64,000 nt of DNA from Muriicola jejuensis (GTDB lineage Bacteria; Bacteroidota; Bacteroidia; Flavobacteriales; Flavobacteriaceae), in assembly GCF_010671595.1 (NCBI RefSeq), contig NZ_JAABOP010000001.1:1116001-1180000 (forward strand), written 5' to 3'. The notes beneath the pieces were generated by a model. It did no database searches. It was given only the letters and a program-made list of their open reading frames with translations, and had not been told where the DNA came from. The position numbers and the translations under genes are program-made. Positions within the stretch are counted from its first letter, which is position 1. Each line of letters begins with the position of its first letter. Of this stretch, positions 978 through 55,252 are shown one piece after another.

Positions 978-1677
978 CTTCGCGGGTTCTAACGGTTCGT
1001 TGTTCAATTCTTTTCTCGTATTTCTCGCCCTGGAAGATCCTTTGTACAAAGATCCCCGGGATATGGATCTCGTTCGGGTCGAGAGAGCCGGCAGGTAGCA
1101 GCTCCTCTACCTCAGCCACAGTGATCCCGGCCGCTCCGCACATGCAGGGGTTAAAATTCCTGGCGGTTCCTTTAAAAATAAGGTTGCCTGCTTCATCCCC
1201 TTTCCATGCTTTCACAAAGGAAAAATCGGCCTTGTAGGCGTATTCGAGCACGTACATCTTCCCATTGAATTCCCTCGTTTCTTTTCCCTCAGCCACCTCG
1301 GTCCCATAGCCCGCCGGTGTGTAAAATGCAGGGAATCCGGCCTGGGCTGCCCGGCATTTCTCTGCCAGGGTTCCCTGAGGGGTCAGTTCCACCTCCAATT
1401 CTCCACTGAGCATTTGGCGCTCAAATTCGTCATTCTCACCCACGTAAGAGGAGATCATTTTACGGATCTGGTGTTTTTGCAATAACAACCCAAGGCCAAA
1501 GTCGTCCACCCCGGCATTGTTGCTGATGCAGGTGAGGTCCTTCACGCCCCGCCTTACCAGTTCGGCTATGGCGTTCTCCGGGATGCCGCAAAGTCCGAAT
1601 CCTCCCAGCATCAAGGTCATACCGTCCTTAACTCCTTCCAGTGCTTCTTTTGGCCCTTTGACCGTTTTTGGGATCAT
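967..1677 (-). CDS. scoA: Succinyl-CoA:3-ketoacid CoA-transferase subunit A
   Basis: Alpha subunit (236 aa) of the heteromeric succinyl-CoA:3-ketoacid CoA-transferase. The glycine-rich [10 protein letters not shown] motif near residue 25 and the [14 protein letters not shown] stretch are hallmarks of the family 1 CoA-transferase A chain. ATG at 1677 (MIPKTVKG) fits the usual N-terminus; the open frame continues to 1743 but that part overlaps the penicillin-binding protein gene in another frame. It starts 16 nt after the PBP1A stop, so it may be read from the ricT-gldH-PBP1A transcript as well as from its own promoter. The functional link between CoA transfer and wall synthesis is not obvious. 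Confidence 0.95.
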
Positions 1678-1693
1678 AACGAGTGTACTTGTA

Positions 1694-4039
1694 TTAAAAA
1701 TCGAGATCGTCCAGGTCGTCCTCCAGGTCGTCTTCTTCGCCAACGTTTTGCGTTGCCCTGGAACAATCCAGGTTTATGGTCATATTCTCCGGTTTGGGGA
1801 ACTCTTCCTTTGACACTCCGAGTTCCTCCTCTTCGTAATTCTTTTTCATATAGAGAGCCCAGATAGGCAAGGCCATAGATGCCCCCTGTCCGTAATTGAT
1901 CGTCTTGAAATGGGTAGCTCGGTCCTCCCCGCCTACCCATACACCGGTGACCAGGTTGGGAACCATACCCATGAACCAGCCGTCACTCTGGTTTTGTGTC
2001 GTTCCCGTCTTTCCGGCAATCGGATTCGTAAATCCGTAGGGGTATCCGGTGATGATCTCTTTGTACAAGGCATCTTCCTTGTTATAGTTGTGCCTAAGAC
2101 GCGTTCCGGATCCTCCTTCGGTCACCCCTTCGAGCAAGTTGATCATGGCATAAGCCACTTCCTTGCTCAATACATCTTTCGTCTCAGGGACGTACTCATA
2201 AAGCACGGTTCCGTTCTTGTCTTCGATACGGGTGACCATGACAGGTTTTACGTATACTCCCTGATTCGCAAAAGTACCATAGGCCCCCACCATTTCATAG
2301 ACATTGAAATCCGGTGTGCCCAGGGCGATGGAAGGCACTTCCGGGATCTCCCTCGTAAGACCGAGATTTTTTACGATGGAGACCACGGGCTTCGGTCCTA
2401 CCTTATCGATAAGCTGTGCGGTTACTGTATTCACAGAATTCGCCAGTGCCCGTTTAAGAGTGTACATTTCCCCTGAATACCTTCCGTCGGAATTTTTAGG
2501 ACACCAGGGTTCCGGGTTTCCGTGTTTACCGGCCTCAATACAGTACTGGCTGTCAGGCAGCTGATCACAGGGTGACATCCTCAGCTGGTCTATTGCAGCT
2601 GCATAGACAAAGGGCTTAAAGGTAGATCCTGCCTGCCTTGCTCCCTGTATTACATTGTCATACTGAAAGTGCTTGTAGTTGATCCCGCCTACCCATGCCT
2701 TTACGTGACCCGTCTGAGGTTCCATGGACATCATGGCCGTTCTCAGGATGGTCTTGTAGTAGCGGATGGAATCCATGGGAGTCATCACTGTATCCTTCTC
2801 CTTAGTCTCACTGTTCCAGTCGAATACCGTCATTTCCGTTTTCTGATTGAAGGATTCCCGGATCTCTTTTTCCGTCTTTCCCTCTGCCTTCATGGTCCTC
2901 CATCGGTCAGAATTCTTCATTGCCCGCTCCATGATCCCCCGGATCTCTTCCCTCTCCAGTTCGAGAAATGGAGTGGTCGGGTTCCGTTGGGGTGTATTCT
3001 GATGAAAGAACTCGGCCTGAAGTCGTTTCATGTGCTCAGCTACTGCATCCTCCGCATTTTTTTGCATCCTGGAATCGATGGTCGTATATACCTTCAGTCC
3101 GTCGAGGTAAAGATTCCATGTTTCCCTTTCGCCTTCTGCCGTGATGGGTTTTGGGTTTTTTTTGAGCCAGTCATTTAAAAAGCCCTGCAAATACATCCTG
3201 AAATAGGTGGCCAGGCCTTCCCGATGGGACTCCGGACTGAAATTGATATCCATTCTGAGTGCCTGGAGAGAATCCTTTTCCTCCTCGGTGATATAACCGT
3301 ATTTCTCCATTTGGGAAAGGACCGTATTTCTCCTGTCGAGCACTAGTTGTTCTCTTCGTATGGGGTTGTAAAGGGAGGAGTTTTTGAGCATCCCGACCAA
3401 CACAGCAGATTCCTCCGTCTTCAGGTCCCGGGGTTCCTTTCCGAAATAGATCCTGGAGGCAGAGCGGATACCGTCTGCGTTATACCCGAAATCATAGATA
3501 TTCATGTACATGGCTATGATCTCCTGTTTGGTATAGCTGCGCTCCAGTCGGGTAGCTATCACCCATTCCTTGATCTTCTGGGTAACGGCCTGGAAGAGGT
3601 TCTTGGATCTTACGCCCACGAATAATTGCCGGGCTAACTGCTGGGAAATGGTACTGGCACCTCCCCTTTGTCCCAGGAAGACAAAAGCCCTCAGCGTCCC
3701 TATCCCATCAATACCGGAATGATCATAATAACGGGCATCTTCTGTTGCCACCAGGGCATTGATGAGATTATCCGGCAGGTCTTCATAGGCAACCGGGGTC
3801 CTGTTGTCATCAAGATAGAATTTGCCCAGGGTGGCCCCGTCAGAAGAAATGATCTCGGTGGCGAGATTGGTTTGTGGATTCTCAAGCCTTTCAAAGGTTG
3901 GCATCTCCCCGAATACTCCCCATGCAGCCAACAGGAAGATGAGGAATACCCCCAGTACCCCGCTGAGGAGCAGGATCCAAAACCATTTTATAAATGGGTA
4001 AAAAGCTTTGTTGTCAGGTTTTTTTTTCGTCTTTGCCAT
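1694..4039 (-). CDS. mrcA: Class A penicillin-binding protein 1A
   Basis: Bifunctional peptidoglycan synthase (781 aa): glycosyltransferase family 51 plus a transpeptidase, anchored in the inner membrane by one helix (about residues 16-42). GT51 motifs are visible near residue 100 ([10 protein letters not shown], catalytic Glu) and near 125 ([13 protein letters not shown]). Transpeptidase motifs are STFK (about 470), SVN (about 540) and KTGTT (about 675), all intact. The C-terminus is acidic. I take ATG at 4039 (MAKTKKK), 4 nt after the gldH stop, with AAAGG about 10 nt upstream. An in-frame ATG at 4057 would overlap gldH by 14 nt. Context with gldH and ricT is typical of flavobacteria. Confidence 0.95.
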
Positions 4040-5773: not shown

Positions 5774-6844
5774 TTAATGTGAAGTAAAAATGGTCCTGGC
5801 CGACTCTTCCGGTGTCTTTTTGTAAAGCAATGCCTCAGAGCGCCCTTTTTTGAAGATCTTGTTGCTTTTGGATTTGCCCTTTCTGAGTTCCTTTTGAACC
5901 TCCTCCGGCAAGGCATGGATCTCCTTGCATTCCGCGGAACAACACTGATCCATCTTCTCTGCACAGGATTCGCACTGAATAAATAGCAGGTGACACGCCT
6001 CATTGGCACAGTTCACATGGGTGTCGCAGGGTTGTCCGCACTGATGGCAATTAGAGATGATATCCTCGGAGATTCGCTCACTTCTTCTCTGGTCGAAAAC
6101 GAAGTTTTTCCCCATGAATTTGTTTTCCAGCCCTTTGGCCATAACCTGCCGGGTGTAATCAATGATACCCCCTTCTAGCTGATAGACCTGTTTGAATCCC
6201 TTGTGCTTGTAATACGCACTTGCCTTTTCACACCGGATACCGCCGGTGCAATACATCACCAGTTTTTTGTCTTCTTTGAACTCCGAGAGCTGTTCTTCTA
6301 TAATATCCAGGGAGTCCCTGAAAGTATCCACATCAGGAGTGATGGCATTCTTGAAATGACCGATCTCGCTCTCGTAATGATTGCGCATGTCTACCAGAAG
6401 GGTGTTGGGGTCCTCAATGAGCTCATTAAATTGCTCTGCCCCTACGTGAATCCCCTTGTTAGTAACATCAAAAGTGGCATCGTTTAACCCGTCTGCCACG
6501 ATCTTGTCACGCACCTTGATCTTAAGTTTCAGGAAGGATTTGTTATCCTGTTCAATGGCGATGTTCAACCGTACATTTTCGAGGAATGTAATACTGTCCA
6601 GATGCGCCTTCAGGGCGTCGAAGTTCTCAGCCGGAACAGAGAGTTGCGCGTTGATACCTTCATGGGCCACATAGATCCTGCCCAGGACTTCCAGGGCATC
6701 CCAGGCCAGAAAGATATGGTTCCGAAAGATCTGAGGGTTCCCGATGTGTGCGTACTTGTAAAAGGAGATGGTGAGTCGGTCTTTGCCGGCCTCTTCAATG
6801 AGACCTTCCCTTTCCTTCGCACTTAATGTATTGTACAGTTGCAT
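5774..6844 (-). CDS. trhO: tRNA uridine(34) hydroxylase TrhO, rhodanese family
   Basis: TrhO (YceA family, 356 aa) makes 5-hydroxyuridine at wobble position 34 of tRNAs, an oxygen-dependent step towards cmo5U/mcmo5U. An N-terminal acylphosphatase-like domain (about 25-120) precedes a rhodanese domain (about 135-240) with the catalytic cysteine in MYCTGGIRCEKASAYY. A cysteine-rich tail (CHQCGQPC; CANEACH; CESC) looks like a zinc site, which occurs in many members. It begins with ATG at 6844 and has its own promoter (6880-6907). The gap to ricT is 88 nt, so readthrough into ricT is possible. Confidence 0.93.
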   Translation of the reverse strand: MQLYNTLSAKEREGLIEEAGKDRLTISFYKYAHIGNPQIFRNHIFLAWDALEVLGRIYVAHEGINAQLSVPAENFDALKAHLDSITFLENVRLNIAIEQDNKSFLKLKIKVRDKIVADGLNDATFDVTNKGIHVGAEQFNELIEDPNTLLVDMRNHYESEIGHFKNAITPDVDTFRDSLDIIEEQLSEFKEDKKLVMYCTGGIRCEKASAYYKHKGFKQVYQLEGGIIDYTRQVMAKGLENKFMGKNFVFDQRRSERISEDIISNCHQCGQPCDTHVNCANEACHLLFIQCESCAEKMDQCCSAECKEIHALPEEVQKELRKGKSKSNKIFKKGRSEALLYKKTPEESARTIFTSH

Positions 6845-6938: not shown

Positions 6939-7053
6939 AGTGATCACTTTAAGGAAATTCTCTTTTCCATAGTAGTCAAAACCAATAAAGTGAACAAGAA
7001 TGAATAATGCTTTTTGAGTAGATGTGATAATTTCAAAAAGGTTGCTTTTCTGA

Positions 7054-8121: not shown

Positions 8122-8188
8122 GCCTTTCCCTCAGAGCACAAAGCAACCCTTATCCCTTTATTTCATCTTAAGGAAAACCTGTAATGAG

Positions 8189-8608
8189 ATGAGCTTAAAG
8201 AAATCCATACCCTTGTTGCTTTGCTTCGTTGTATTCGGGCTTTCTTCCTGTAAGCTGGAAGATGACCGTGTCAATTTCAGATTTGTCCCTTTGCAAATTT
8301 TAAGCGCTGACGTTCCTGAGGCCTTCGAACTCAATGAGACCTATGAGATCAGGGTACGATACCTGCGCCCCAGCGCCTGTGTGTTTTTTGAGGGATTTGA
8401 TATCACCAAAGAAGGAGTTACCACCAGAAATGTAGTGGCAATTGGCACCGATTTCTACGATGAAGTTTGTACCCAGGCCGTGGAAGAACAAGAAGCGTCC
8501 TTCAATTTTATCTGCCTCTATGAGGATACCTACCTGTTCCGATTCTGGACCGGGGAAGACGAAAACGGAAATCAACAGTATTTAGAGGTGGAAGTCCCCG
8601 TGAACTGA
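8189..8608 (+). CDS. Small lipoprotein of unknown function
   Basis: A 139-residue protein with a signal peptide ending in the lipobox LSSC (Cys21), so probably anchored to a membrane facing the periplasm. The mature part is acidic and contains four cysteines beyond the lipid Cys (PSACVFF, DEVCTQ, NFICLY regions), which may form disulfides. Its pattern of alternating hydrophobic residues suggests a beta-sandwich. I do not recognise the family. It lies 67 nt after recA and 40 nt before the sigma factor gene, so it probably belongs with the sigma factor and barrel gene as an envelope-related group rather than with recA. Confidence 0.8.
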   Translation: MSLKKSIPLLLCFVVFGLSSCKLEDDRVNFRFVPLQILSADVPEAFELNETYEIRVRYLRPSACVFFEGFDITKEGVTTRNVVAIGTDFYDEVCTQAVEEQEASFNFICLYEDTYLFRFWTGEDENGNQQYLEVEVPVN

Positions 8609-8648: not shown

Positions 8649-9179
8649 TTGGATCTGAAAAAGCTCATACATCGTTGCATTAAAGGAGACAGGAAAGCGC
8701 AGGAGCAGCTTTACCGGAAGTATTCCGCTGTCCTTTTTGGACTGTGTTTGAAGTATTCCCGAAATAAAATGGAGGCTGAAGATAACCTACACGACAGTTT
8801 TTTAACCATCTATGACAAAATAGACCAGTTTGAGTTCAAAGGTTCCTTTGAAGGTTGGTTAAAGCGGATCACCGTGAACACGGTTCTGCAGAAATACAGA
8901 AAAGAACAGTATATGAATGTGGTCTCCGAAAACATAAAGGAAGAGGAGGAGTTGGAATATGAATATGCAGACGTCCAACTCTCTACCTTGCTGCAATACG
9001 TACAGGAGTTGCCGACCAAGTACCGCCTGACCTTTAACCTGTACGTACTCGACGGGTACACCCACAAAGAGATCAGTGAACTGCTGGGCACATCCACCGG
9101 GACTTCCAAGTCTAATCTCTCCAGGGCCAAAATGATCCTGAAGGAAAAACTTAAGAAAGAAAACATCAACATTGCTTAA
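8649..9179 (+). CDS. ECF-type RNA polymerase sigma factor, TTG start
   Basis: A 176-residue sigma-70 family factor with region 2 (about 18-85; LYRKYSAVLFGLCLKYSRNKMEAED reads like the core-binding and -10 segments) and region 4 (about 118-168; helix-turn-helix in GYTHKEISELLGTSTGTSKSNLSR). This layout is typical of extracytoplasmic-function factors. No ATG is available before residue 41 and the frame is closed 48 nt upstream by the preceding stop, so TTG at 8649 is the likely start. There is no obvious Shine-Dalgarno sequence. The next gene encodes a one-pass membrane protein that may control it. Confidence 0.9.
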   Translation: MDLKKLIHRCIKGDRKAQEQLYRKYSAVLFGLCLKYSRNKMEAEDNLHDSFLTIYDKIDQFEFKGSFEGWLKRITVNTVLQKYRKEQYMNVVSENIKEEEELEYEYADVQLSTLLQYVQELPTKYRLTFNLYVLDGYTHKEISELLGTSTGTSKSNLSRAKMILKEKLKKENINIA

Positions 9180-9189
9180 TTCCACGGGC

Positions 9190-10641
9190 ATGAAAAAGAA
9201 AGATATAGAAAAGGTATTCCAGGAAAAGCTAAAGGATCACAGTGAGATCCCGGAAGAACAGGTCTGGGAGCGCATATCCGCTTCTCTGGATAACAAAAAG
9301 AACAAACGAAGGATCATTCCCATTTGGTGGCGGATAGCCGGAGTGGCTGCTTTGCTCCTTGCCGGGTTATTCCTCTTCCTCCCTTCCGGGAACCAGACCA
9401 CTTCAGAAGAACCTGTTACCAAGACAACTACAGAATCTCCCGTGGTCCAGGAGCCCGGGAATGTGGTCCCTGAAAAGATGGAAGAGGAAAGTAACTCCAT
9501 CCTTGCCTCTGAAGAGAATTCAGTGAAAGGAAAAGAACCTGAGAATCAGGAAAATGATGCCCCGACTATTGCCAACGAAGAGACCCTTAGGAATTCCCTC
9601 CCTTCTAAAGAGTCGGAATTCGCCAAAAACGATGTGCCTGTAACCCCGGAGCACCCCTTGACAGAGGATCCACTTCAGAAGTATGCCAATAAATCTGATA
9701 TTTCGGATATCGCACAGCTGACACCCACTGTAAAGCAGAATGCGCAAATGGATTCTCAGGCACCTGCACCCACGGAAGATATTTTGGCCCGGAACAGTAA
9801 AAAAGAGCCTGCAGAAGACGAGTCGAATGCAATACAGCTCACGGAAAGCAATAAACCCCCCATCTTGGATGCCATTGCTGCCCAGGAAGAGGAACTTTCA
9901 GAAGAGACCTCGGCCAAACGATGGGAAGTTGGTCCGAGGGTAGCCCCGGTCTACTTCAGCTCCCTGGCCCAGGGATCCCCTATTCACTCCAGTTTCCGGG
10001 ACAATGCGAAATCCGGGAATGTGAATATGAGTTATGGAGTGGCGGTAACCTATGAACTCGGAAAACGATTGAAAGTAAGGTCTGGGGTACACAGGGTCGA
10101 TTTTGGCTATGACACCCAGGATGTCTCTTTTTCTTCCTCCCTCAACGCCAATACGAATGGGATCATCAACAACATCAATTACAACCTGAGTTCCAGGAAT
10201 CTGGTGGTCAGGAGCAACACGAATAGCGGAAAGGTGGACCTGGAAAATGCACAGGATGTGGCGGGTCCTGATCCTTCCCTTAACGGCAAGATGGTGCAGG
10301 AGTTCGGATACCTCGAAGTCCCTTTGGAACTGACCTATGAGATCCTGGACAGAAAGGTGGGAGTAAATCTGGTAGGTGGGGTTAGCTCACTCTTCCTCAC
10401 GAACAATACGGTGGTTCTTGAGGCCAATGGAAATACTACGGAGATGGGTGAAGCGAACAATATAAACGACCTGAATTTCAGTACCAATTTTGGAGTAGGC
10501 TTCTCCTATCAGATCAATGACCGAATAAAACTCAACCTGGAACCCATGTTCAAATATCAGCTCAATACCTTTTCAGATACCTCTGGAAACTTTCAGCCTT
10601 TTTCCATGGGCATCTATTCCGGTCTTAATTTCAGGTTTTAA
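9190..10641 (+). CDS. Membrane-anchored protein with beta-barrel-like C-terminus
   Basis: This 483-residue protein has three parts. Residues 1-40 are cytoplasmic and charged (KKKDIEKVFQEKLKDH). A single membrane helix (about 43-60; AGVAALLLAGLFLFLP) is followed by a long Glu/Pro/Ser/Thr-rich linker (about 60-245). Residues 250-483 have the alternating pattern of an outer-membrane beta-barrel domain, ending with aromatic NFRF as barrel proteins do. It starts 10 nt after the sigma gene; an in-frame TTG at 9172 would overlap that gene, so ATG at 9190 is preferred. The position of an anti-sigma factor plus this architecture suggests a regulator spanning the periplasm, but no anti-sigma family is recognised. 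Confidence 0.85.
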   Translation: MKKKDIEKVFQEKLKDHSEIPEEQVWERISASLDNKKNKRRIIPIWWRIAGVAALLLAGLFLFLPSGNQTTSEEPVTKTTTESPVVQEPGNVVPEKMEEESNSILASEENSVKGKEPENQENDAPTIANEETLRNSLPSKESEFAKNDVPVTPEHPLTEDPLQKYANKSDISDIAQLTPTVKQNAQMDSQAPAPTEDILARNSKKEPAEDESNAIQLTESNKPPILDAIAAQEEELSEETSAKRWEVGPRVAPVYFSSLAQGSPIHSSFRDNAKSGNVNMSYGVAVTYELGKRLKVRSGVHRVDFGYDTQDVSFSSSLNANTNGIINNINYNLSSRNLVVRSNTNSGKVDLENAQDVAGPDPSLNGKMVQEFGYLEVPLELTYEILDRKVGVNLVGGVSSLFLTNNTVVLEANGNTTEMGEANNINDLNFSTNFGVGFSYQINDRIKLNLEPMFKYQLNTFSDTSGNFQPFSMGIYSGLNFRF

Positions 10642-10683
10642 GAAGTTGGTTAGGTTGGTTGCTGCCTTCTCAGTAACCCTGAG

Positions 10684-10713
10684 GCACCCCGTGACTTTGC
10701 GGGGTGTTTTTTT
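10684..10713 (+). terminator. Rho-independent terminator after the sigma/barrel genes
   Basis: The stem GCACCCCG (10684-10691) pairs with CGGGGTGT (10700-10707) around an 8-nt loop and runs into a plus-strand T-tract to 10713. It separates the plus-strand sigma/barrel unit from the convergent plsC gene. Confidence 0.85.
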
Positions 10714-10736
10714 ACAGGGTATTTGTTTTGAAAAGC

Positions 10737-43634: not shown

Positions 43635-44630
43635 TCAGGATATACCTGAGAAATCCCGGTGTTCTTTCTGTCTTAATTCCTCTGGTGAAAGAGATCGGAA
43701 ATATTCATAGACCTTTTTTAGCCCTTCCTTTCGTTCAACCTTGGGTTCCCAGCCAAGGATCTCTTTGGCCCGGGTGATGTCCGGTTGTCTTTGTAATGGA
43801 TCATCCTTGGGCAAGGGTTTGTAGACGATCTTCTGGTCCTTGCCTGTGAGCTCCAGGATCTCCCTGGCAAATTCATTGATAGTGGTCTCATCGGGGTTAC
43901 CGATGTTGATAGGATCGGAGTAATCGCTCATCAGGAGACGGTAGATCCCTTCGACCTGATCGTCGATATAGCAGAAAGAGCGCGTCTGTGTCCCATCCCC
44001 AAATACGGTAAGGTTTTCTCCTCTGAGCGCCTGGCCCATAAAAGCCGGTACTACCCTTCCGTCGTTCAATCGCATCCTGGATCCATAAGTATTAAAGATC
44101 CGGGCGATCCGGGTATCCAGCCCGTGAAAACGGTGATAGGCCATGGTGATGGATTCCATAAAGCGCTTGGCCTCGTCGTATACTCCTCTAGGCCCAACCG
44201 GGGAAACGTTACCATAGTAATCTTCATTTTGCGGATGCACCAGGGGATCACCATATACCTCAGAAGTGGAGGCCACTAAAATAGTTGCATTCTTTTCCTT
44301 GGCCAGGCCCAGGCAATTCAAAGTGCCCATAGACCCCACTTTCAGGGTCTCAATAGGGATCTTGAGGTAATCAATGGGGCTTGCCGGGGATGCAAAATGA
44401 AGGATATAGTCCAGTTTCCCAGGAATATGAACAAATTTGGTAACATCGTGGTGGTAGAATTCGAAGTGTTCCAGAGGAAATAGATGTTCGATGTTCTTCA
44501 GGTCTCCTGTAATCAGGTTATCCATCCCTATCACGTGGTATCCTTCAGCGATAAACCGGTCGCAGAGATGGGATCCCAGGAATCCCGCTGCGCCGGTGAT
44601 TAGTACTTTTTTTAGTGCCGAGTTAGCCAT
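43635..44630 (-). CDS. uxs: UDP-glucuronic acid decarboxylase
   Basis: An extended short-chain dehydrogenase (331 aa) of the UXS type, converting UDP-glucuronate to UDP-xylose with internal NAD+ recycling. The NAD motif is [10 protein letters not shown], the catalytic Tyr-Lys appear in YDEAKR, and [11 protein letters not shown] is typical of UXS. It is the last gene of the polysaccharide unit and overlaps wecA by one base (TAATG). No UDP-glucose dehydrogenase lies nearby, so its UDP-GlcA must come from elsewhere. This end of the locus is back to the higher GC of the flanks. Confidence 0.9.
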
Positions 44631-45775
44631 TAACTATCGTTATCAGACCCTTTTTTTTTGATCTTTTTAGACATTCCTTTAATTTTTCTCTTCAGCATGA
44701 TCTTTTGCTTAAGAGTAGTAAAATTGTAATTGTACTTGAAAAAAATATAAGCCAGGATTATAACGGACCCAACTAGAAGAAGCATCATTGAAAGATTTTT
44801 CGCTGTACTCCCCAGAACTACGAACAATAAAACAAATAGCAAGTTAAAGCAACCTATTAGAAAACTCGCCTGTTTATGACTTAGCCCCCAGAAATCAATA
44901 AGAACATGATGTACATGATTTCGATCCGGTGAAAAAGGTCCTCGTTTATTAGCTATACGAATCGTAAAAACCCGTGCAGTGTCGAAAAGGGGAACAATTA
45001 GGATGGCTATTGCAATAAGCGGAGCATTTTCTAATAGAAAAGGGAGTTCGGAATATACATAGGGTTTTAAAGAAAGAAATTTTATTGTTAAGATGCTTAT
45101 AATAAAACCTACTAACAATGAGCCTGTATCGCCCATAAATATTTTTCTGTTAGAAGAAATATTAAAACCAAAAAATGCCATGAGACATGCATTCATAGTA
45201 ATGCTGATCAAAGCAAAAAAGTACTCTTTGGTAAGATAAAAAATAGTCGTGTAAATAATCATGATGACTATCCCAACTACGGAAGCCAGTCCGTCTATTC
45301 CATCGATAAGATTATAAGAATTTATGATGGTCAACATCATAAATGTCCCTATTGCAAAATACAAGTAATAGGGGATCTCATTGATATTTAGAAAGCCATT
45401 TAGGGAGTGTATTGTGAAACTATCATTTATAAGAACAAAAGACACAGCTATAAACTGAGCTATCAATTTTGATCCCGGCGAGAGCACTACTAAATCATCT
45501 TTTAATCCGACGATAAATAGAATAGTAAGACCTGGAATAAGATAAATGGCCTCATCGAAAGTATCCCGCCCATGAATAAAAAAAAGAGCAAAAATTAAGG
45601 TGTAGAAAAAAGCAATCCCCCCTAATGTAGGTGTTTTCTGAGTATGAGAGCTTCTCTGATTTGGATCATCCATAAGCCGCCTGTATTCAACAACTCCAAT
45701 AATCTTTGGAATTGTCAGATACGTTAATAGGAATGCTCCAATAAAGAGGGCAACTGCCGTTTCGAGAAAATACAA
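44630..45775 (-). CDS. wecA: WecA-like undecaprenyl-phosphate sugar-1-phosphate transferase
   Basis: A 381-residue MraY/WecA family membrane enzyme with about 11 helices. It starts glycan assembly by placing a HexNAc-1-phosphate (usually GlcNAc) on undecaprenyl phosphate. Visible motifs are [26 protein letters not shown], the catalytic [13 protein letters not shown] and the loop motif [12 protein letters not shown]. The C-terminus is strongly basic ([15 protein letters not shown]). Base composition is AT-rich. It follows wecG by 11 nt. Precise sugar is inferred from the wecG/wecB/wecC company. Confidence 0.92.
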
Positions 45776-45786
45776 TTTTTACAGAA

Positions 45787-46485
45787 TTATAGTCTATCAA
45801 ATATAATTCTAAAAAAGAACTTAATTAAACTTCGCTGCCTGCCAAACCTTGTCGGCTCGTTCAATAATCTATACAACCACTCTAGCCCAAATTTTTGATA
45901 TCCTTTTGGCGCTCTTTTCTTCTTACCTGAATAGACATCAAAACTTCCTCCTAGGCCCATATATAAGGCAGAATGGTATTTCATTAATCTTTCCATTAGA
46001 AACTCCTGTTTTGGGCTTCCCATGGCTATGAATACGATGTCTGGCTTATGAAGTTTCAATTCTGATTCTATCTTTTCTATATCTCCTTCTAACAGATATC
46101 CATTTCGATAACCCTTTAAACATAATTCCGAAAACTCTGATCTAAGTTTCTGAACAGTTTGATCAATAACCTCTTGTGAAGATCCTATTAAATAAAAGGA
46201 TTTTGAATCTTTAAATTGCTTTATAATGTCTAGCCAGAATTCAGCACCCGCAATTTTAACAGCTCTTATTCCTTTTCTTTTTAAAGCCCACACCGCACCT
46301 ATTCCATCAGGATATCCAATATTTTCATTAATGATTTTATCAAGCTTAGGGTCACTTTTGTTGAGTTTCTCTGCGTTCAGGGCAATTAGAATCTTATGTT
46401 TATTTCTAATAAAACTCAAGAATTCCTTCTTAGAAGTAAATGCGTATATTTTTTTTTTATTTAATACATGAGTCTTTATCTCCAT
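45787..46485 (-). CDS. wecG: WecG/TagA/CpsF family glycosyltransferase (GT26)
   Basis: A 232-residue GT26 enzyme. The family adds the second sugar to undecaprenyl-PP-GlcNAc: WecG transfers ManNAcA in enterobacterial common antigen, TagA transfers ManNAc in teichoic acid. Motifs include NADG-like YPDGIGAVWA, the nucleotide region FYLIGSS and the C-terminal IAMGSPKQEFLM, then GLGGSFDVYSGKKKRAP. Since wecB and wecC are in the same operon, ManNAcA transfer is the best prediction. AT-rich; it lies between the ligase and wecA genes. Confidence 0.9.
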   Translation of the reverse strand: MEIKTHVLNKKKIYAFTSKKEFLSFIRNKHKILIALNAEKLNKSDPKLDKIINENIGYPDGIGAVWALKRKGIRAVKIAGAEFWLDIIKQFKDSKSFYLIGSSQEVIDQTVQKLRSEFSELCLKGYRNGYLLEGDIEKIESELKLHKPDIVFIAMGSPKQEFLMERLMKYHSALYMGLGGSFDVYSGKKKRAPKGYQKFGLEWLYRLLNEPTRFGRQRSLIKFFFRIIFDRL

Positions 46486-46525
46486 AATGAATTAAATCTA
46501 AATTAATCCGAAAACTTCCGATAAA

Positions 46526-47794
46526 TCAACTACTTCTCTTTTGATAAGTCGTGATTCGATTACTAAATAGAAATACAGTTCCAAAAAATGAAACGAAGAT
46601 AATTGCTGCGTTTCTGATTAAATAATTCTCAAAAAGACAGACAAAAGCGATGAATACAAAAAATAAAATACCAATATGATCATGATTTCGGACTCCAAAA
46701 TATATATTGGTACCAAGCACATGAAATAGTAGTATCAATGCTAAAAGGCCTGCCTCCAGGGCAAATCCTAAATATTGATTATGTGCATTGTATTCATACT
46801 TTGCAGCGGAGGTCATTCCACTTTTTCGATATTCAGCCGCCAAAATTGTTGACTCATTTCCCGCCCCATATCCGATTAATGGGGACTTAGAAATCTGCTC
46901 AACCGCTATTGCCCACCGTGCCAATCTAGAATCCCCTTTGCCTGATGAATTATAATTAGTTCCAACTTCATAGGACAACTCCCAGATTGATTCTGTAGTG
47001 AGTCTTTGATAGAGGTAGGTATTCTTGAAAAATGAAAAAAACCCAACGCTAAATATTGTAAACATTAAGGCAAAGGCTACAAAAGCTCTTCTGTCTTGCT
47101 TAAAATATTTCTTAAGATTCCTTAAGATGTAAAATAGTATTGTGAGAACAAAAAGAGCCAAGATAATTCTAGAGCCAACGAAGAAAATTGAAAGCGTAAT
47201 AATACCTATAGAAGCTCCTCTAAAAATTTTATACCAGGAACCCGGGTCATGCAATAGTCCAACTAATGCTAACAGCAAGTACATTCCATAGTAGGTGGGA
47301 TGGATGTCGATAATTTCAGTATAGTTTTTATTCGTGTAGTAATAATTAAAAAGATCTTTATCTATTGTCCATAGAGGTTTTTGCTGATAATATTCAAAGA
47401 AATTGATGGATATAAGCAAAAGAGACGAAAATATGGCCCCATATATGAGCCCCAATAATGCCTTCTTTCTTAATAAAAGAACCTCATTAGTTCTTAGAAA
47501 TAAGAAAAAGAATGGAATCGCTAAATAGGTGATTCTTTTGCCAGTTATATTTAGATTGTGAAATATCTCCTCTGCAAAAATAAAGGTCGTCAAAGTGGGG
47601 ATAAACAACAAAACAGTAGAATATTTCAACAAGCCTATGTTTCTGGACTCGAAAACTCTTTTTCGCAGAAAAAGTTGTATTAAAATGACAACACAAAATA
47701 AAAGTAGACTAATATTTCCCGCCTTCGTGCTAAAAGGCAATACCAGTCCAAATATAAATGCTGAGCTATAAAGACTATTTTGAAGTTTTGTCAT
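46526..47794 (-). CDS. O-antigen ligase/polymerase family membrane protein (WaaL-like)
   Basis: A 422-residue protein with about 12 membrane helices and a large periplasmic loop near the C-terminal end, the Wzy_C/O-antigen ligase architecture. The loop carries LIGYGAGNES and EYNAHNQYLG, whose His is characteristic of ligases. It either attaches the finished polymer to lipid A-core (WaaL) or polymerises repeats (Wzy); the NAHNQYLG signature slightly favours ligase. It overlaps the other polymerase-like gene by 20 nt. Composition is strongly AT-rich. Confidence 0.85.
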   Translation of the reverse strand: MTKLQNSLYSSAFIFGLVLPFSTKAGNISLLLFCVVILIQLFLRKRVFESRNIGLLKYSTVLLFIPTLTTFIFAEEIFHNLNITGKRITYLAIPFFFLFLRTNEVLLLRKKALLGLIYGAIFSSLLLISINFFEYYQQKPLWTIDKDLFNYYYTNKNYTEIIDIHPTYYGMYLLLALVGLLHDPGSWYKIFRGASIGIITLSIFFVGSRIILALFVLTILFYILRNLKKYFKQDRRAFVAFALMFTIFSVGFFSFFKNTYLYQRLTTESIWELSYEVGTNYNSSGKGDSRLARWAIAVEQISKSPLIGYGAGNESTILAAEYRKSGMTSAAKYEYNAHNQYLGFALEAGLLALILLFHVLGTNIYFGVRNHDHIGILFFVFIAFVCLFENYLIRNAAIIFVSFFGTVFLFSNRITTYQKRSS

Positions 47795-49016
47795 CTAGCT
47801 TAAGGTACATTAAACTGATGAGTAATCCGATAAATATTCCTGCCATACCTGAACTAAATACATGACCCGCCATGGTAGATATTGATAGTAAAACAAGTAC
47901 CATAAGAAAGACAAAATTGGCGAAGTAAAAGGCGCTATATCTTCTAAGTCTTAACAATTGAATCCACAAAACATACGTCAAAAACAGAAATAAAATTAAT
48001 CCAAAGATACCATAGGCAAAAAAGATATCTGCCACGTCCATTTCAACTATCTTCCCTTGATTCAGTGCCTCATATTTAGACTGTCCTACTCCAATAAACT
48101 TTTCGATCAAATTATAGTTTTCTTTATAGTTTTCATATGCTCTTCCAAAAAATTTATTTCGGCTCGACAACACAAATGTCCAGAAATCAAGTTTGTCCCA
48201 AAAGAAACTGAATCGATCGAATATTGGCGAGTTTTTTATAATCCGCCACGTAACAAGTAGGCCTAAAGGCAGAGCGATAATTGATGTAATAATGACTCCT
48301 TTTAACTTTTTAAGGCCAAATTTCCGGGTGGGTTTTTTTATTGGAATCAACAGAAAAATCAATCCAATGCCTATCAACCCAGTCTTGGAGCTTACCATAA
48401 CTCCGACCATTATATTTAAGATTAGAAAAAGGATATACAAGCCCCTTCTTTTTCTTAACCACAAATCAAAAGCGATTATGGAGGCTAGTATGATCAGTAA
48501 AACAGAAATCTCATTTCCAGCAAAGAAATAACCTTTGCTTCCAATATTCCCTTCTTCATACATGGGATAACCCAAGCCAAAGAGCTTTAATAGAATATTG
48601 CCTACCAAAATGATATATGAGAATTTAACAAGATTAAAAAGCATTCTTATTATACTCTGGTCCTTACGACGAATGATGGGTATAAAAAAAAGTAAGCTAA
48701 AAAGGGGAAGAAGATATCTTGATACTTTAACGATATCAAATAAAAAAGAAGAGTTTTCAGAGTTGATTACCAGTTGATAAAAGGAGGGAATTAAAAGCAG
48801 AAAGAATAGAAATATGCTAATTATCAGGTACTTAACAGAAAATAGAAATCTTACAAAGATTAGGATCAGTACTAGAGTCTTAAATATTTGACCAATAGAT
48901 ACTGGTAACACGTTGTTACTTTTCAACAGTATTCCATTAATCATATCTACCGGCAGTGATGCAAATAGAATTGTGACAATTAAAGAGTCTAGATGTCGTA
49001 ATTTAAACATCTCCAT
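47775..49016 (-). CDS. O-antigen polymerase-like membrane protein (Wzy candidate)
   Basis: A 413-residue, very hydrophobic protein with about 11-12 helices and a periplasmic loop (about 275-335; FIGVGQSKYEALNQGKI). It resembles Wzy/O-antigen polymerases, which link Wzx-flipped repeats, but these proteins share little sequence. With a second ligase-like gene next door, this one is the better Wzy candidate. Starts are ambiguous: ATG 49016 (14-nt overlap with the GT4 gene) or ATG 49010 (8-nt overlap, ATGTTTAA). I report the longer. Very AT-rich. Confidence 0.78.
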   Translation of the reverse strand: MEMFKLRHLDSLIVTILFASLPVDMINGILLKSNNVLPVSIGQIFKTLVLILIFVRFLFSVKYLIISIFLFFLLLIPSFYQLVINSENSSFLFDIVKVSRYLLPLFSLLFFIPIIRRKDQSIIRMLFNLVKFSYIILVGNILLKLFGLGYPMYEEGNIGSKGYFFAGNEISVLLIILASIIAFDLWLRKRRGLYILFLILNIMVGVMVSSKTGLIGIGLIFLLIPIKKPTRKFGLKKLKGVIITSIIALPLGLLVTWRIIKNSPIFDRFSFFWDKLDFWTFVLSSRNKFFGRAYENYKENYNLIEKFIGVGQSKYEALNQGKIVEMDVADIFFAYGIFGLILFLFLTYVLWIQLLRLRRYSAFYFANFVFLMVLVLLSISTMAGHVFSSGMAGIFIGLLISLMYLKLDDKTSK

Positions 49017-50142
49017 TTGATAATAAAGACGACAAGACCTCAATTTCTTTTTTCATCGTCTTTTTTAGTTCTATCTGTTCTATCTGATTGCTACCATTCA
49101 GGGTTATTTTTCTGTACTTTTCCAAATCACTAGTCACCTCAATTATCCCCTCAAATAATTCCTTTTCATCAATACCCAAAATCCCGCTCTTCATATTTTC
49201 TATAAACTCACCTTTAGATGAGTTCTTTGTTGTAGCGACTAATAAGCCTCGAGACATAGCTTCCATCATGGTTATTCCTTGTGAATCTATCCGTGTGGTT
49301 GAAATGAATACCCCAAATTGATCAAATACCTCTAGCATTTCTATTCTACTAAGAAATTGCTCGATTATTTTTATTCTATGTTGAAGTCCTAAGGCTTTAA
49401 TTCTTCGATCATAACTCCTTTTATATTTCCCTTTACCATAAATAACCAAACTGTATTTTTCGGGCAACAAATTAATTGTGTCAATAGTCTGTTCAATATT
49501 ATATACTTTCTGAGATAGAGATCTTATGGTAAGTATTTTAAATCTCTTTTCCTCGAGTGATCGATATTTAAATAACGCTGTATCAATACCGTTTGGAATA
49601 ATAAAAAACTTATCAATTTTTAGGTTTAAATTTTCCTCAGTATTATTCCTCATCCACTTCGAAGGAAAAATATATGCACTATTTTCGATGTCTTTGGTCG
49701 CCCTTATAAATCTTCTCATTTTCGGAATTACAAAAAGATCCTTTTTTATCCACTTTAAAACTTCGCTTATTCTGAAATTGAATTCATAAAATCTGGAAGA
49801 GTATTTTTGGACCTCATTCCCATGCACGTAGATGGCAAATGGAATCTTTGTTCTTAGGATATGCTTATAAATTGGCCAACCATTCGCTTTACTAAATGGG
49901 TAAATGTTTAGGAGGTGAAGATAAAGAAGATCATATTTTGAGATTTCCTTTATTATTTCTGAATATCCTATTTTATGTATTGGAATTTCCTCGTGTTCGT
50001 AATAGTGGCGACTAATAGAGGGAACATAAACGATTGTTGAAATCCCAATTCTCAGCATCTCTTTAGCTCTCATATGAACAAACATATGGTTGTAAGGGTT
50101 GTCCTTACTGGGGTACCTGGATGTGATAATGGCGACTTTCAT
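49003..50142 (-). CDS. Glycosyltransferase family 4
   Basis: A 379-residue GT-B glycosyltransferase. The N-terminal VAIITSRYPSKDNPYNHMFVH acceptor domain precedes the nucleotide-sugar domain with IPNGIDTALFKYRS and the acidic EX7E-type region GVFISTTRIDSQGITMMEAMSRGL. It probably adds the third sugar of the repeat on the cytoplasmic side, with rhamnose from the RmlABCD pathway the simplest guess. It is the only ordinary glycosyltransferase in the operon besides WecA and WecG. It overlaps wzx by 4 nt and the polymerase-like gene at its end. Confidence 0.9.
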   Translation of the reverse strand: MKVAIITSRYPSKDNPYNHMFVHMRAKEMLRIGISTIVYVPSISRHYYEHEEIPIHKIGYSEIIKEISKYDLLYLHLLNIYPFSKANGWPIYKHILRTKIPFAIYVHGNEVQKYSSRFYEFNFRISEVLKWIKKDLFVIPKMRRFIRATKDIENSAYIFPSKWMRNNTEENLNLKIDKFFIIPNGIDTALFKYRSLEEKRFKILTIRSLSQKVYNIEQTIDTINLLPEKYSLVIYGKGKYKRSYDRRIKALGLQHRIKIIEQFLSRIEMLEVFDQFGVFISTTRIDSQGITMMEAMSRGLLVATTKNSSKGEFIENMKSGILGIDEKELFEGIIEVTSDLEKYRKITLNGSNQIEQIELKKTMKKEIEVLSSLLSNGDV

Positions 50143-51380
50143 TTCTTGAGTGATCTAATTTTCTGTTCAGAAATCATAACAAGACCAAGGAGTACTATAA
50201 AATAAGATATTGCATTTGTGGTAACCGCACCCACTAATCCGAATCTTGGTAAAAGCACAAAAATGGCTGAGATGCCAATAAAGGCGGCAATCGCCATTAT
50301 GACAAAACGTTGTTTTTGCATATCATATACGACTAACAACATTTCATAATTAGAAAAAATAAAGCGCATTAAAGTAATCGCGACAATGATAATAAAGGAG
50401 AGATTTGATACATAAGTAATATCTAAATTAATAAATGAGAGGACAACTCTCTTCATTAACAATAGCATAATACAGATTGCAATCCCTAATAGAATTGTAT
50501 ATCTCTGAATATTTCTAAAAAGGTTTAGAATATTTGCTTTATTCGAATTAGCAAGGCGATTTAAAATTACCTGCGAGATCGCGACAGTAATCATAAATAA
50601 GGGGGCTACAATAACAAAAAGAGCCCTGTAATACCCATACGTTTTTTCATCGATTATATAAAAGAGAATTAGTAAGCCTGCTTGAGTATAAATAGCAGTC
50701 ACAATATCTTGAAAACCAAAATACTTTCTCTTATTGAGACCATGCAAAATCTGTTTAATACTAATCTGCCTTAACTCTATTGAAATACTCATTCTTTCTC
50801 TTAATTCCGAAAACAGATACGTATATGCGATAATGGTGGCATTCAATCCTATTAACACCAAGAAGATAATTCGAATATCCGCTAAATCTTTGGACATGAA
50901 ATAAAAGTATCCCGTAAACATCAAAATACCGGCTGCAAATATTGAGTACGCCTTCAATTCTTGTGTGAATTGTCCAAGCCCTTTAAAATAGGAGAAAGAC
51001 AGCAGATTGAGAGACAGGAAATAACTTAAAATAATACCATAGATAGCATAATCCCATCCATTCAAGACATTGAAAAAAGGAGTAAGCACAAAGTAAGATA
51101 TTAACAATAAGAACATTATTGCTGTTGTAATTACAATCGAATGAATTAGTTCTTTTGTTCCTAATTTATCAGCTTTTCCATTGGCTATCAAATACGTTGA
51201 ACTGCCAAAAGGTAAAACGGAAAGCAAAATGTTTGACAATGAATAAATAAAAGAAAATAGTGCATAGGATTCAATATCCAGCAGCGCAATAAGGGCAAGG
51301 TTAAATATCCATCTCGATCCAAATTGAAGTCCCTGAGAAAGGTTGTTTAGAACAATATCTTTAAGAAAGGATTTTGACAT
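50139..51380 (-). CDS. wzx: Wzx-type flippase
   Basis: A 413-residue inner-membrane protein with about 12 helices of the polysaccharide transporter family, starting LNNLSQGLQFGSRWIFNLALI, a typical Wzx opening. It would flip the lipid-linked repeat unit to the periplasmic face for the Wzy polymerase. It is distinct from the flippase at 19.5 kb. It overlaps the GT4 gene by 4 nt (ATGA type) and follows the epimerase-like gene by 23 nt. Strongly AT-rich codon use. Confidence 0.88.
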   Translation of the reverse strand: MSKSFLKDIVLNNLSQGLQFGSRWIFNLALIALLDIESYALFSFIYSLSNILLSVLPFGSSTYLIANGKADKLGTKELIHSIVITTAIMFLLLISYFVLTPFFNVLNGWDYAIYGIILSYFLSLNLLSFSYFKGLGQFTQELKAYSIFAAGILMFTGYFYFMSKDLADIRIIFLVLIGLNATIIAYTYLFSELRERMSISIELRQISIKQILHGLNKRKYFGFQDIVTAIYTQAGLLILFYIIDEKTYGYYRALFVIVAPLFMITVAISQVILNRLANSNKANILNLFRNIQRYTILLGIAICIMLLLMKRVVLSFINLDITYVSNLSFIIIVAITLMRFIFSNYEMLLVVYDMQKQRFVIMAIAAFIGISAIFVLLPRFGLVGAVTTNAISYFIVLLGLVMISEQKIRSLKK

Positions 51381-51403
51381 TAGTTCGACCAGTGCGTCAT
51401 AAT

Positions 51404-52801
51404 CTAATTGAGTTTCTCTCTGATTTCTACGAGCTTTAAAAGGTCCATGAGAATGTCTCTTCTGTCAAAAATGACATTTATTTCCCTTAACGCGACCATG
51501 TCATTGTTTCCACTTAAGAATTTAATCACGACCTCAGATCCCTTAGGTTTCCCTTCGATGTAGTATCCTTGAATAAATGTTTCGTATTTTCCTGTTTTGT
51601 AGGTCTTTAAATAAGAGTTTTTGACCTCCTCGCTATCCAGTATCAACTCACAATCTCCGTTAGTTTTGCAAGTATAAATTGCAAAATTTTGAGGCAGCGT
51701 ATTTTCTGAAGTGGAATAAAATACAATTTGAGAAATATTTTTTTCTTCTTTTGGAAAAAGAATGCGGAGATCTGTTGGAAATTTATTTGTGCTCCAATAC
51801 TTCCCCCAGCTCCACAACTCATCATTTAAATGGCCTGTGCCATAATTCAAAGGATCAATTGCATATGAAGCAGTAATTTCACTGAATTTATCCTCGTTAT
51901 AATAATCCGTAACTTCTCCGGTATCATACTTCAGAAATTTATGGGCGTACTCCATAAATATTCCCTCTTGAGTCCAGACGTATAAGGTTAATAATTGGTA
52001 TATCACTAATTCATGATAATGATCAGGGTCTTCGTTTTTTGCAGAGGCGTATTGATATCCCCCTTTTTGTAATTTGCTGTAATATGAAGTAAACTCTGCA
52101 TCATACTCATTTATTTTTATTTTTAAAGTTTCAATACCTTTATCAAAAAGGTCTTTTGATTCTTTGGTGTTTAATACTTTATGGAAATAGTATAATCCTG
52201 CTAACGAATAAATAAATCCATTAAGAACTTTAGATTTTTCATCAGCGTATTCTTCATAGAAGTCATAACCATCCCAATAACTCTTTATACCTTTTTCGGA
52301 TATTTGATAATTGTAAGCATTTATAGCTTTTTTTGCAGTTTCGAGATACTTTTCTTCCCCAGTTAGATTATATGCTTCAAGCATGATACCTATACCATAC
52401 CCTTGCGACATGGCTGAGGCCCAAGGAATTGGCAACTCGTATCCCGTAATTTCTTCACTGCATTCCCAAACTGAAAAGTCTTTATAATGGGTAATTGCAT
52501 CCTGAATAAATTTTGCCTGTCTTAAAAAGTCTCTTTTGACAATTTCATTTCCCGTCTCTAAATAATTTGCATAATAGTGTAGGGCTATTTGGGTGTATTG
52601 AATAGGGTAATGAAATGTCTTATCGTTATACGCCAACATGGGAATCCCGTTGCTGTCCCTAGGCACATCTTTAAACTGTTCAATATTTGAATTTACAAAA
52701 GGAAATTTGGGTAATGAATTCTTACTTTTTTGACTGAATATGACCAAAGGTAGAAATACCAAACAAAAGACATTGCAACTCCTGCATACATACTTGTTCA
52801 T
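51404..52801 (-). CDS. Exported D-glucuronyl C5-epimerase-like protein with beta-sandwich tail
   Basis: A 465-residue protein with a signal peptide (1-24), a helical domain (about 45-330) like the C-terminal catalytic domain of glucuronyl C5-epimerases (YPIQYTQIALHYYANYLETG; PWASAMSQGYGIGIMLEAYN; YEEYADEKSKVLNGFIYSLA) and a C-terminal beta-sandwich (about 335-450), perhaps discoidin-like. The family inverts C5 of uronic acids within polymers (heparosan, and by analogy alginate). Being exported, it should act on the polymer in the periplasm or outside. It sits between wecC and wzx, so ManNAcA is the likely substrate. A lyase or binding protein is the alternative. Confidence 0.75.
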   Translation of the reverse strand: MNKYVCRSCNVFCLVFLPLVIFSQKSKNSLPKFPFVNSNIEQFKDVPRDSNGIPMLAYNDKTFHYPIQYTQIALHYYANYLETGNEIVKRDFLRQAKFIQDAITHYKDFSVWECSEEITGYELPIPWASAMSQGYGIGIMLEAYNLTGEEKYLETAKKAINAYNYQISEKGIKSYWDGYDFYEEYADEKSKVLNGFIYSLAGLYYFHKVLNTKESKDLFDKGIETLKIKINEYDAEFTSYYSKLQKGGYQYASAKNEDPDHYHELVIYQLLTLYVWTQEGIFMEYAHKFLKYDTGEVTDYYNEDKFSEITASYAIDPLNYGTGHLNDELWSWGKYWSTNKFPTDLRILFPKEEKNISQIVFYSTSENTLPQNFAIYTCKTNGDCELILDSEEVKNSYLKTYKTGKYETFIQGYYIEGKPKGSEVVIKFLSGNNDMVALREINVIFDRRDILMDLLKLVEIREKLN

Positions 52802-52881
52802 TCTGATGTATTATAGACGAGATTTGTAAAAAGACTACTCTTATTGGTTTGCTTCTATGAAGCCAACCATTGTCCTGAATA

Positions 52882-54093: not shown

Positions 54094-54094
54094 A

Positions 54095-55225
54095 TTATAC
54101 CAGATTATCCATAAACTTTACTATTCTATCACAGGCCGTTCCATCTCCATAAGGATTGTGCTTAGCACTCATTTCATTATAGTGATTAAAATCTCTGAGC
54201 AAACGCTCAGTTTCGCTTGTGATTTTAGAAACATCTGTGCCCACTAATATTACGGTGCCTGCTTCAACGGCCTCTGGTCTTTCCGTAGTGTCGCGCATAA
54301 CAAGAACAGGTTTGCCTAAACTAGGTGCTTCTTCCTGGACGCCTCCGCTATCTGTGATGATCAGATAGGATTTAGTCATCAACCACACAAAAGCGGGATA
54401 CGATAGAGGGGCAATAAGTTTAATGTTGGGAATATTGTCTAAAATATCATAGACTGGTTTCTGTACATTAGGATTTAGATGAACAGGATAAACAATCTCA
54501 ACATCTTTATTTGCCTGTGCAATCTTTTTCAATGCATGACAGATGTTTATGAAGCCCTCGCCATGATTCTCTCTCCTGTGCCCCGTGACAAGAATTATTT
54601 TTTTCGCTTGGTCAATGGATTCCATTAAACCAGTAATTTCCTCATTCTTAAAATCACTTCTGTTGACTTTAGAAGAGCTATATTTCAAGGCATCAATTAC
54701 CGTATTGCCAGTTACCAGTATTTGGCTTTCACTCGTGTTCTCCAGTACAAGATTATCTTTTGAGGTTTGGGTGGGTGCGAAATGATAATCGCCAACAGCA
54801 CCCGTTATTCTACGGTTCATTTCTTCAGGAAAAGGAGAATGCTTATCAAATGTTCTCAATCCGGCTTCCACATGACAAACCTTTGCACCCGCGTAAAACG
54901 CAGCTATTGACGTTGCCATTGTCGTGGTTGTATCCCCATGTACATAAACGAAATCCGGTTTGAAATCCTCTAAAATCGGTTTCAAAGATGTTATAATATT
55001 TGACGTTAAGGAGTACAGGTTCTGATCCGGTTGCATCAGATCCAAGTCATAATCGGGTATTATTTCGAAAAATGAAAGTACTTGATCCAACATTTCCCTG
55101 TGTTGTGCTGTTACGCAAACTCTTGTGTCAAATTCTTGTATATTATTTTGGAAAGCTTTTACCAGCGGTGCCATTTTAATAGCTTCTGGTCGGGTTCCAA
55201 AAACGATGAGGTTTCTTTTCTTCAT
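54095..55225 (-). CDS. wecB: UDP-N-acetylglucosamine 2-epimerase (non-hydrolysing)
   Basis: A 376-residue GT-B fold enzyme interconverting UDP-GlcNAc and UDP-ManNAc. Motifs include [34 protein letters not shown] and the C-terminal [19 protein letters not shown], all typical. It makes the substrate of WecC, encoded next on the transcript. It starts 27 nt after the rmlD stop. Base composition starts to drop here relative to the rml genes. Confidence 0.96.
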
Positions 55226-55252
55226 CTAAGAAATTAGGAAGTATGGTTATTG

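Follow-up and report, generated by a model that had tools for sequence, protein, structure and literature searches.

A conserved lipoprotein, sigma factor and Dma/Reo-type locus of Flavobacteriaceae with a promoter-like element and a predicted regulon

The window analyzed here is a stretch of 64,000 nucleotides from Muriicola jejuensis, located in contig C11 of a 3.3 Mb genome. At recA, which is on the + strand and ends at 8121, begins a row of three co-directional genes encoding a small lipoprotein, an extracytoplasmic function (ECF) sigma factor and a protein of 483 amino acids (aa). The initial annotation had proposed that the 483-aa protein is fixed in both membranes and controls the adjacent sigma factor. 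Our results support well that the pair belongs to the same kind as the Dma/Reo systems of Bacteroides and Phocaeicola, and a conserved promoter-like element, GCAACC-N15-YATCT, precedes the row.

8143..8168, + strand: predicted ECF-type promoter GCAACC-N15-CATCT of the lipoprotein-sigma-Dma row; the element is kept in the loci of relatives
8189..8608, + strand: small lipoprotein, 139 aa, lipobox Cys21 followed by an acidic run, immunoglobulin (Ig)-like beta-sandwich
8649..9179, + strand: ECF sigma factor, 176 aa, TTG start (Pfam; reciprocal best hit)
9190..10641, + strand: Dma/Reo-type candidate anti-sigma factor, 483 aa, ATG start (Pfam, profiles, gene order, predicted fold)
9190..9327, + strand: cytoplasmic segment, residues 1-46, predicted sigma-factor binder (invariant W26/L33; profile match of the N-terminus)
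9334..9390, + strand: inner-membrane helix, residues 49-67 (hydropathy; helix at 45-63 in the AlphaFold2 model)
9391..9921, + strand: disordered periplasmic tether, residues 68-244 (predicted local distance difference test score, pLDDT, below 50 for 67-221; low column identity)
9922..10638, + strand: predicted outer-membrane beta-barrel, residues 245-483 (Pfam, AlphaFold2, Foldseek, VIA-align)
10685..10713, + strand: terminator-like hairpin CACCCCG-loop-CGGGGTG, then T7 (read from the sequence; fold energy)
7020..7045, - strand: second copy of the GCAACC-N15-YATCT element, before trhO
5774..6844, - strand: trhO, oxygen-dependent tRNA uridine(34) hydroxylase of the rhodanese family, predicted regulon member (NCBIfam)

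The lipoprotein and sigma genes are separated by 40 bases and the sigma and Dma genes by 10, and these short gaps suggest that the three genes share one transcript. The sigma factor matches Pfam Sigma70_r2 (1.8e-12) and Sigma70_r4_2 (1.5e-14), while among the 25 NCBIfam rows listed for it the superfamily model alone exceeds its cut-off. The open reading frame (ORF) of the 483-aa protein could open at TTG 9172, but relatives start at the equivalent of ATG 9190. This gene is present as a single copy in its genome.

Hydropathy, Pfam and AlphaFold2 confirm the earlier description of the 483-aa protein as one chain that starts with a short cytoplasmic part, crosses the inner membrane by a single helix and continues through a linker to a C-terminal barrel. 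The cytoplasmic part is charged, comprises about 46 aa with an F-P-W-I-L pattern, and has W26 and L33 invariant in 30 aligned proteins. It is followed by a single hydrophobic helix at residues 49-67 with a Kyte-Doolittle mean of 2.14, and no hydropathy window away from this helix exceeds 1.6. From residue 68 to the invariant W245 the tether measures 177 aa, with 10% Pro and 21% Asp+Glu, compared to the roughly 185 residues given earlier. Across the 30 aligned proteins, including that of the window, tether length is 164-247 aa with a mean of 193, and Pro content ranges from 1 to 10%; being Pro-rich is therefore a trait of this copy and not of the family. Column identity is lowest in the tether (0.26); the barrel has 0.61 and the cytoplasmic part 0.66.

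The C-terminal region matches Pfam OMP_b-brl_2 (8.4e-8, residues 231-454) and is modelled by AlphaFold2 as an 8-strand barrel, where pLDDT averaged over ten residues is 84-97 onward from residue 241, apart from 311-360 (48-87). pLDDT is below 50 at residues 67-221, and the whole chain has a mean of 65.9 and a predicted template modelling score of 0.51. The barrel matches the transmembrane domains of OmpA, NspA, OmpW and OprF, with E 4.6e-8 for the best OmpA entry in Foldseek and VIA-align Z scores of 17.6 for NspA, 17.1 for OprF and 16.0 for OmpA (1qjp). Fold prediction had been suggested as a check on the C-terminal domain, and all three methods (AlphaFold2, Foldseek and VIA-align) point to a membrane barrel and not to a soluble fold.

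The distribution of the gene was assessed in 120 Flavobacteriaceae genomes, one per genus, of which 103 contain a relative of the 483-aa protein; 14 of the 17 genomes without a match are 2.2 Mb or smaller. Gene order was examined in the best 30 of the 103 genomes with a match (at locus L029, tblastn gave the barrel only, and the start was taken from a separate analysis). All 30 loci have a sigma-factor match just upstream of the Dma gene and a lipoprotein match upstream of the sigma gene. recA lies beside the row in 25 of them, and the remaining five stretches are too short to reach it. The relatives in 103 of 120 genomes, together with a sigma match upstream at every locus examined, argue that the arrangement is not due to chance. 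At the phylum level, 70 of 296 genomes had a match to the full-length profile; beyond the family, many of these matches are confined to the N-terminal part.

Relatives in the Bacteroidaceae were gathered both via NigD and via the sigma factor, and the best 80 of the 367 obtained via the sigma factor were studied, including Bacteroides fragilis, B. faecis and B. xylanisolvens. A downstream ORF of at least 150 aa is found in 77 of these 80 loci (L102 and L138 run to the contig end and L154 is without a downstream ORF), and 70 have a complete ORF with the conserved barrel motif. When the 30 flavobacterial proteins were compared with 35 Bacteroidaceae proteins by hhalign, they aligned in the barrel with 98.3% probability and E 1.6e-14. 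The N-terminus with the helix (residues 10-66) aligned with the Bacteroidaceae N-terminus at a probability of 97.2 (E 3.7e-11), and residues 1-46 alone, without the helix, at 80.4 (E 1.3e-5). The Bacteroidaceae Dma profile had the window gene as its sole significant match in the M. jejuensis genome (6.3e-9, next 0.25), over about residues 8-147. For the sigma factors, the window sigma is the best of 15 matches to the Bacteroidaceae profile in its genome (9.4e-43), and in each of three Bacteroidaceae genomes the top match to the flavobacterial profile is the Dma-linked sigma. The two are reciprocal best hits, although the runner-up in the M. jejuensis genome is not far behind (4.0e-39). Collectively, the assignment of the flavobacterial pair to the Dma/Reo kind is well supported by these comparisons, and sigma binding by the N-terminal segment is predicted.

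The published systems provide a functional frame for this pair. In B. thetaiotaomicron, loss of dma1 or dma2 frees das1 or das2 and raises vesicle production, and the partner sigma factors Das1 and Das2 are classed as ECF21 (PMC13088901). These pairs share with the window the N-terminal anti-sigma segment, one helix, a long disordered tether, a C-terminal barrel and an adjoining ECF sigma gene. They differ in that no GCAACC-N15-YATCT element was found beside the Bacteroides-group sigma genes. Reo of Phocaeicola vulgatus runs from the cytoplasm to the surface, and EcfO becomes free when Reo is lost; both the toxin BcpT and the BamA-binding peptide Bd-A induce ecfO-reo, and the regulon includes NigD surface lipoproteins (PMC9308784, PMC13114119). 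This resembles the window, with a sigma factor, an anti-sigma factor reaching from the cytoplasm to the cell surface, and surface lipoproteins in the (here predicted) regulon. Gene order suggests that the B. fragilis loci are EcfO-Reo itself. Wherever nigD was delimited in the Bacteroides group (61 loci), it diverges from the sigma gene; a co-directional arrangement, like that of the lipoprotein gene in the window, is seen only in L073.

Dma3 also has the tether-and-barrel plan, but with the sigma factor in the same chain where the window has two genes (PMC13088901). We observed such a chain at L167:1471-3171 (+), where one protein of 567 aa combines regions 2 and 4 of an ECF sigma factor with a helix at 173-198 and a Dma-type barrel, which fits the description of Dma3 in PMC13088901. 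The helix is found in 12 of 12 examined fusions among L167-L179, and an unbroken match over nearly all 567 residues occurs in 25 of 151 genomes of that family. That this fusion is new was ruled out, since Dma3 is described as such (PMC13088901). FecR/FecA signalling is similar in that an outer-membrane part signals through the inner membrane to an ECF sigma factor, but it uses two proteins, including a TonB-dependent transporter. It was rejected for this locus, as there is no FecR family match (Pfam, up to E 1) and no ORF longer than the 483-aa gene is listed for 5-16 kb, which leaves no neighbour of TonB-receptor size. The proposed trans-envelope regulation of the adjacent sigma factor gains support from Dma/Reo homology and gene order, but the trans-envelope anti-sigma design is already known from Bacteroides and Phocaeicola and is not new.

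The upstream lipoprotein has C21, C64 and C94 invariant in 26 aligned members. An acidic run after the lipobox Cys is a surface-export signal in this phylum. At least two Asp/Glu within six residues after the Cys were found in 17 of 20 members checked, the script having picked another Cys in the other three. A lipoprotein export signal is also named in PMC12045153. The protein is modelled as an Ig-like sandwich (pLDDT 90), and two of its five best VIA-align matches are NigD-like, 3k0y (Z 6.3, root-mean-square deviation 3.0, 89 aligned) and 3qwn, named NigD-like (Z 6.1, root-mean-square deviation 3.6, 93 aligned); complement and other unrelated Ig-like folds score alike. A nigD protein matches 3k0y at 1.7e-24 and 3qwn at 0.0098, and 69 of the 80 Bacteroides-group loci have a nigD match close to the sigma gene. 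Foldseek gave no match for the lipoprotein at E 0.001 or better, and a profile search of the PDB gave one chance-level row (E 3.9). The NigD family is absent from the Pfam matches of the 26 members (up to E 10), and an hhalign comparison with NigD matched in the signal-peptide region only, and the reading of the lipoprotein as a sequence homologue of NigD is thus not supported. As its scores with other Ig folds are similar and sequence profiles fail to link it to NigD, the lipoprotein is a positional counterpart of NigD and not a shown homologue.

The GCAACC-N15-YATCT element lies upstream of the lipoprotein gene in all 25 of the 30 loci whose DNA covers the stretch, with a spacer that is always 15 bases. 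It was also found in 10 of 13 further loci that had not been used to find it, eight with a 15-base and two with a 14-base spacer; L049, L050 and L052, whose DNA ends short of the stretch, are not among the 13. One of these ten (L046) has no recA match beside the row. A separate set of more distant matches without the lipoprotein (L053-L064), outside the 13-locus count, has the element only in L062, with a 16-base spacer. Here, at L062:881 (+), GCAACC-N16-CATCT begins 82 bases before the match of a related sigma gene outside the family, and tblastn gave no Dma match in the stretch examined. This element outside the family implies that the promoter type may predate it.

A strict scan of 10 and then 12 genomes gave 53 + 75 = 128 sites, against 17 + 21 = 38 for the reversed pattern; these 22 genomes were selected because they carry the pair, and most of their loci were among those in which the element was first recognized. 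The element is at the row in all 22 genomes, and 14 have a second, divergent copy 1.1-1.3 kb off across recA, with trhO verified behind it in 11. In the window, 175 bases separate the trhO ATG from the copy at 7020..7045, and the product scores 266 bits against NCBIfam NF001133 (cut-off 170). In genome G032 (L236:2-1222, -), the divergent element precedes a U32-family protein where relatives have trhO. The best NCBIfam name for this protein is TrhP (191 bits, under the cut-off of 534), and the TrhP and TrhO names both denote tRNA U34 hydroxylases.

The 92 remaining sites (36 + 56), neither at the row nor across recA, indicate which other genes the element may control. An ATG opening at least 50 aa follows within 75 bases at 41 of them, and 27 of these 41 genes (12 of 18 and 15 of 23) encode lipoproteins by a lipobox rule, 25 of the 27 starting 14-29 bases behind the element. 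Random positions in this DNA gave 98 lipoproteins among 2287 (4%, Fisher 6e-26), and non-coding-like positions 32 among 234 (Fisher 1e-11); the random-position control used the same fetched DNA as the sites, which is rich in these genes. The rule, combining lipobox and hydropathy, was our own and was written after the pattern had been seen by eye in the first ten genomes, and it was applied to both sets. It misplaced the Cys in L212 and L306 and missed L222 and L282, which are lipoprotein-like. Several of the site lipoproteins are related across genomes; a 'NNLIENGTY'-like stretch, for example, is shared by seven. Eight site proteins were compared with Pfam, and six of them matched no family above the cut-off; L238 is a VWA protein and L226 a fasciclin protein, the latter uncounted as its start is 135 bases off. 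We predict an envelope-sensing pair that controls surface lipoproteins and TrhO, comparable to EcfO-Reo with NigD in Bacteroidales.

This analysis shows the predicted domain anatomy, a conserved gene order, homology to the Bacteroidaceae proteins, and a conserved element with a gene class behind it. Beyond these, we consider it likely that the Dma/Reo-type pair senses outer-membrane disturbance and frees the sigma factor for GCAACC-N15-YATCT promoters. The N-terminal segment of the Dma homologue would hold the co-encoded ECF sigma factor at the inner membrane, while the disordered tether would cross the periplasm and the small OmpA-like barrel would sit in the outer membrane. Disturbance of the outer membrane, or of barrel assembly, would free the sigma factor, probably because the anti-sigma factor is proteolyzed. 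Free sigma would then read GCAACC-N15-YATCT promoters, and its targets would be its own lipoprotein-sigma-Dma row, as feedback, and trhO. In many relatives, further targets would be small secreted lipoproteins that change the cell surface.

Several results weigh against this interpretation. The element is lacking in three of the 13 further flavobacterial loci and in 11 of the 12 more distant ones, and it occurs on neither strand within 400 bases upstream of the sigma gene in the 80 Bacteroides-group loci, hence the promoter type is not shared with them. The M. jejuensis genome has only three strict sites, namely at the row, at trhO and at a place with no gene behind it; the case for a lipoprotein regulon thus comes from relatives. 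At 51 of the 92 other sites no start follows within 75 bases, and many of these sites fall inside open frames, which means that the strict pattern also catches chance matches. In the homology searches, the flavobacterial Dma profile (HMMER) detected the Bacteroidaceae proteins in whole genomes faintly or missed them, with a best row of 0.0019 at an unrelated place and Dma-type rows at 0.005 to 2, and the N-terminal helices of the AlphaFold2 model have low confidence (pLDDT 54-69). The SM6 motif of Flavobacterium psychrophilum has a CGT -10 box (PMC9723704), which is missing from the window element. The SM6 list includes a YceA/rhodanese gene and an ECF/anti-sigma pair, and a tie of our element to the SM6 regulon was considered; such a tie may exist, but the stated -10 box differs. 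No flavobacterial Dma regulon or element was found in print, in a search of open-licence PMC text for which the letters of the element were not used as query.

The assignment of GCAACC-N15-YATCT to the window sigma factor can be weighed against the reading that a different sigma factor recognizes the element and that the row is merely one target. Autoregulation is usual for ECF sigma factors, and the assignment rests on this generalization. The genome also has at least 15 sigma-like loci with a close second at 4.0e-39, which leaves candidates for such a role. However, the element accompanies the row in 25 of 25 and 10 of 13 loci, including L046 without a recA match beside it, and we regard a different reader as rather unlikely. 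We infer that the window sigma factor reads this predicted promoter. A plain porin, co-transcribed by chance with the sigma gene and with an uncleaved signal sequence as its N-terminal helix, is very improbable. The barrel does belong to a large small-porin family (Pfam OMP_b-brl_2) with five other matches in the same genome, but the charged 46-residue segment before the helix has the invariant W26/L33 and is conserved as well as the barrel. A similar segment (by eye) is found on a barrel-less protein beside another sigma gene of the same genome, and the plain porin was rejected on the homology of the conserved N-terminal segment to the Bacteroidaceae N-terminus in hhalign.

Regarding the signal, the protein could sense separation or tension between the membranes through its tether, rather than barrel assembly or outer-membrane damage. 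The tether keeps its length (164-247 aa, mean 193) while its sequence is not kept (identity 0.26), as expected of a spacer. Nevertheless, the length still differs by half among relatives, and those Bacteroides-group proteins that are complete and contain the barrel motif have a smaller total size, at 392-470 aa compared to 470-552 aa in flavobacteria. A disordered chain of such length should also be slack at periplasmic widths, which counts against distance sensing. Furthermore, the characterized relative responds to a toxin and a BamA-binding peptide (PMC9308784, PMC13114119). As it answers such agents, outer-membrane damage or failed barrel assembly is favored as the signal, and distance sensing appears improbable.

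Other loci with related sigma factors were also noted. In the same genome (C11:517400-522400, L162), the second-closest sigma gene at 2971-3528 (-) is followed by a gene for a 242-aa protein at 2229-2954 (-) with a similar N-terminal W motif (by eye) and a helix, but no barrel. Next to it, a 361-aa protein at 1054-2136 (-) has a signal sequence and a C-terminus that is barrel-like by eye, with no Pfam barrel match. These three proteins are possibly a split form of a Dma-type system. Two Bacteroides genomes (L165, L166) contain a second Dma-type pair of 351-356 aa followed by a lipoprotein (DUF4943 in L165; by eye in L166), and these resemble the described dma2 operon in outline only.

Downstream of the Dma gene in the window, the hairpin region (10676-10722) folds at -26.3 kcal/mol with z -4.8, although the terminator-like hairpin at 10685..10713 is missing from the output of a pattern scan. 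A convergent acyltransferase gene comes after it. Elsewhere in the window, G+C drops from about 0.47 to 0.33-0.40 at 44000-56000, which is possibly a genomic island.

The addition to current knowledge is the conserved, mostly recA-linked lipoprotein-sigma-Dma locus of Flavobacteriaceae with its element and predicted regulon. What is new is the conserved promoter-like element that predicts the target genes of the pair, many of which encode small secreted lipoproteins. The Dma/Reo signal and the purpose of the induced lipoproteins are open questions in gut Bacteroides, and a widespread, mostly recA-linked flavobacterial copy with a readable element and a predicted regulon offers further systems for asking which signal the barrel detects and why the response consists of surface lipoproteins; Flavobacterium johnsoniae may be one of them if it carries the locus. 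More tentatively, the pair may be a near-universal outer-membrane sensor of Flavobacteriaceae, usually beside recA, that switches on small surface lipoproteins and TrhO and thereby couples the state of the outer membrane to the surface lipoproteome and tRNA modification. Should TrhO belong to the regulon, it would connect envelope stress with tRNA modification.

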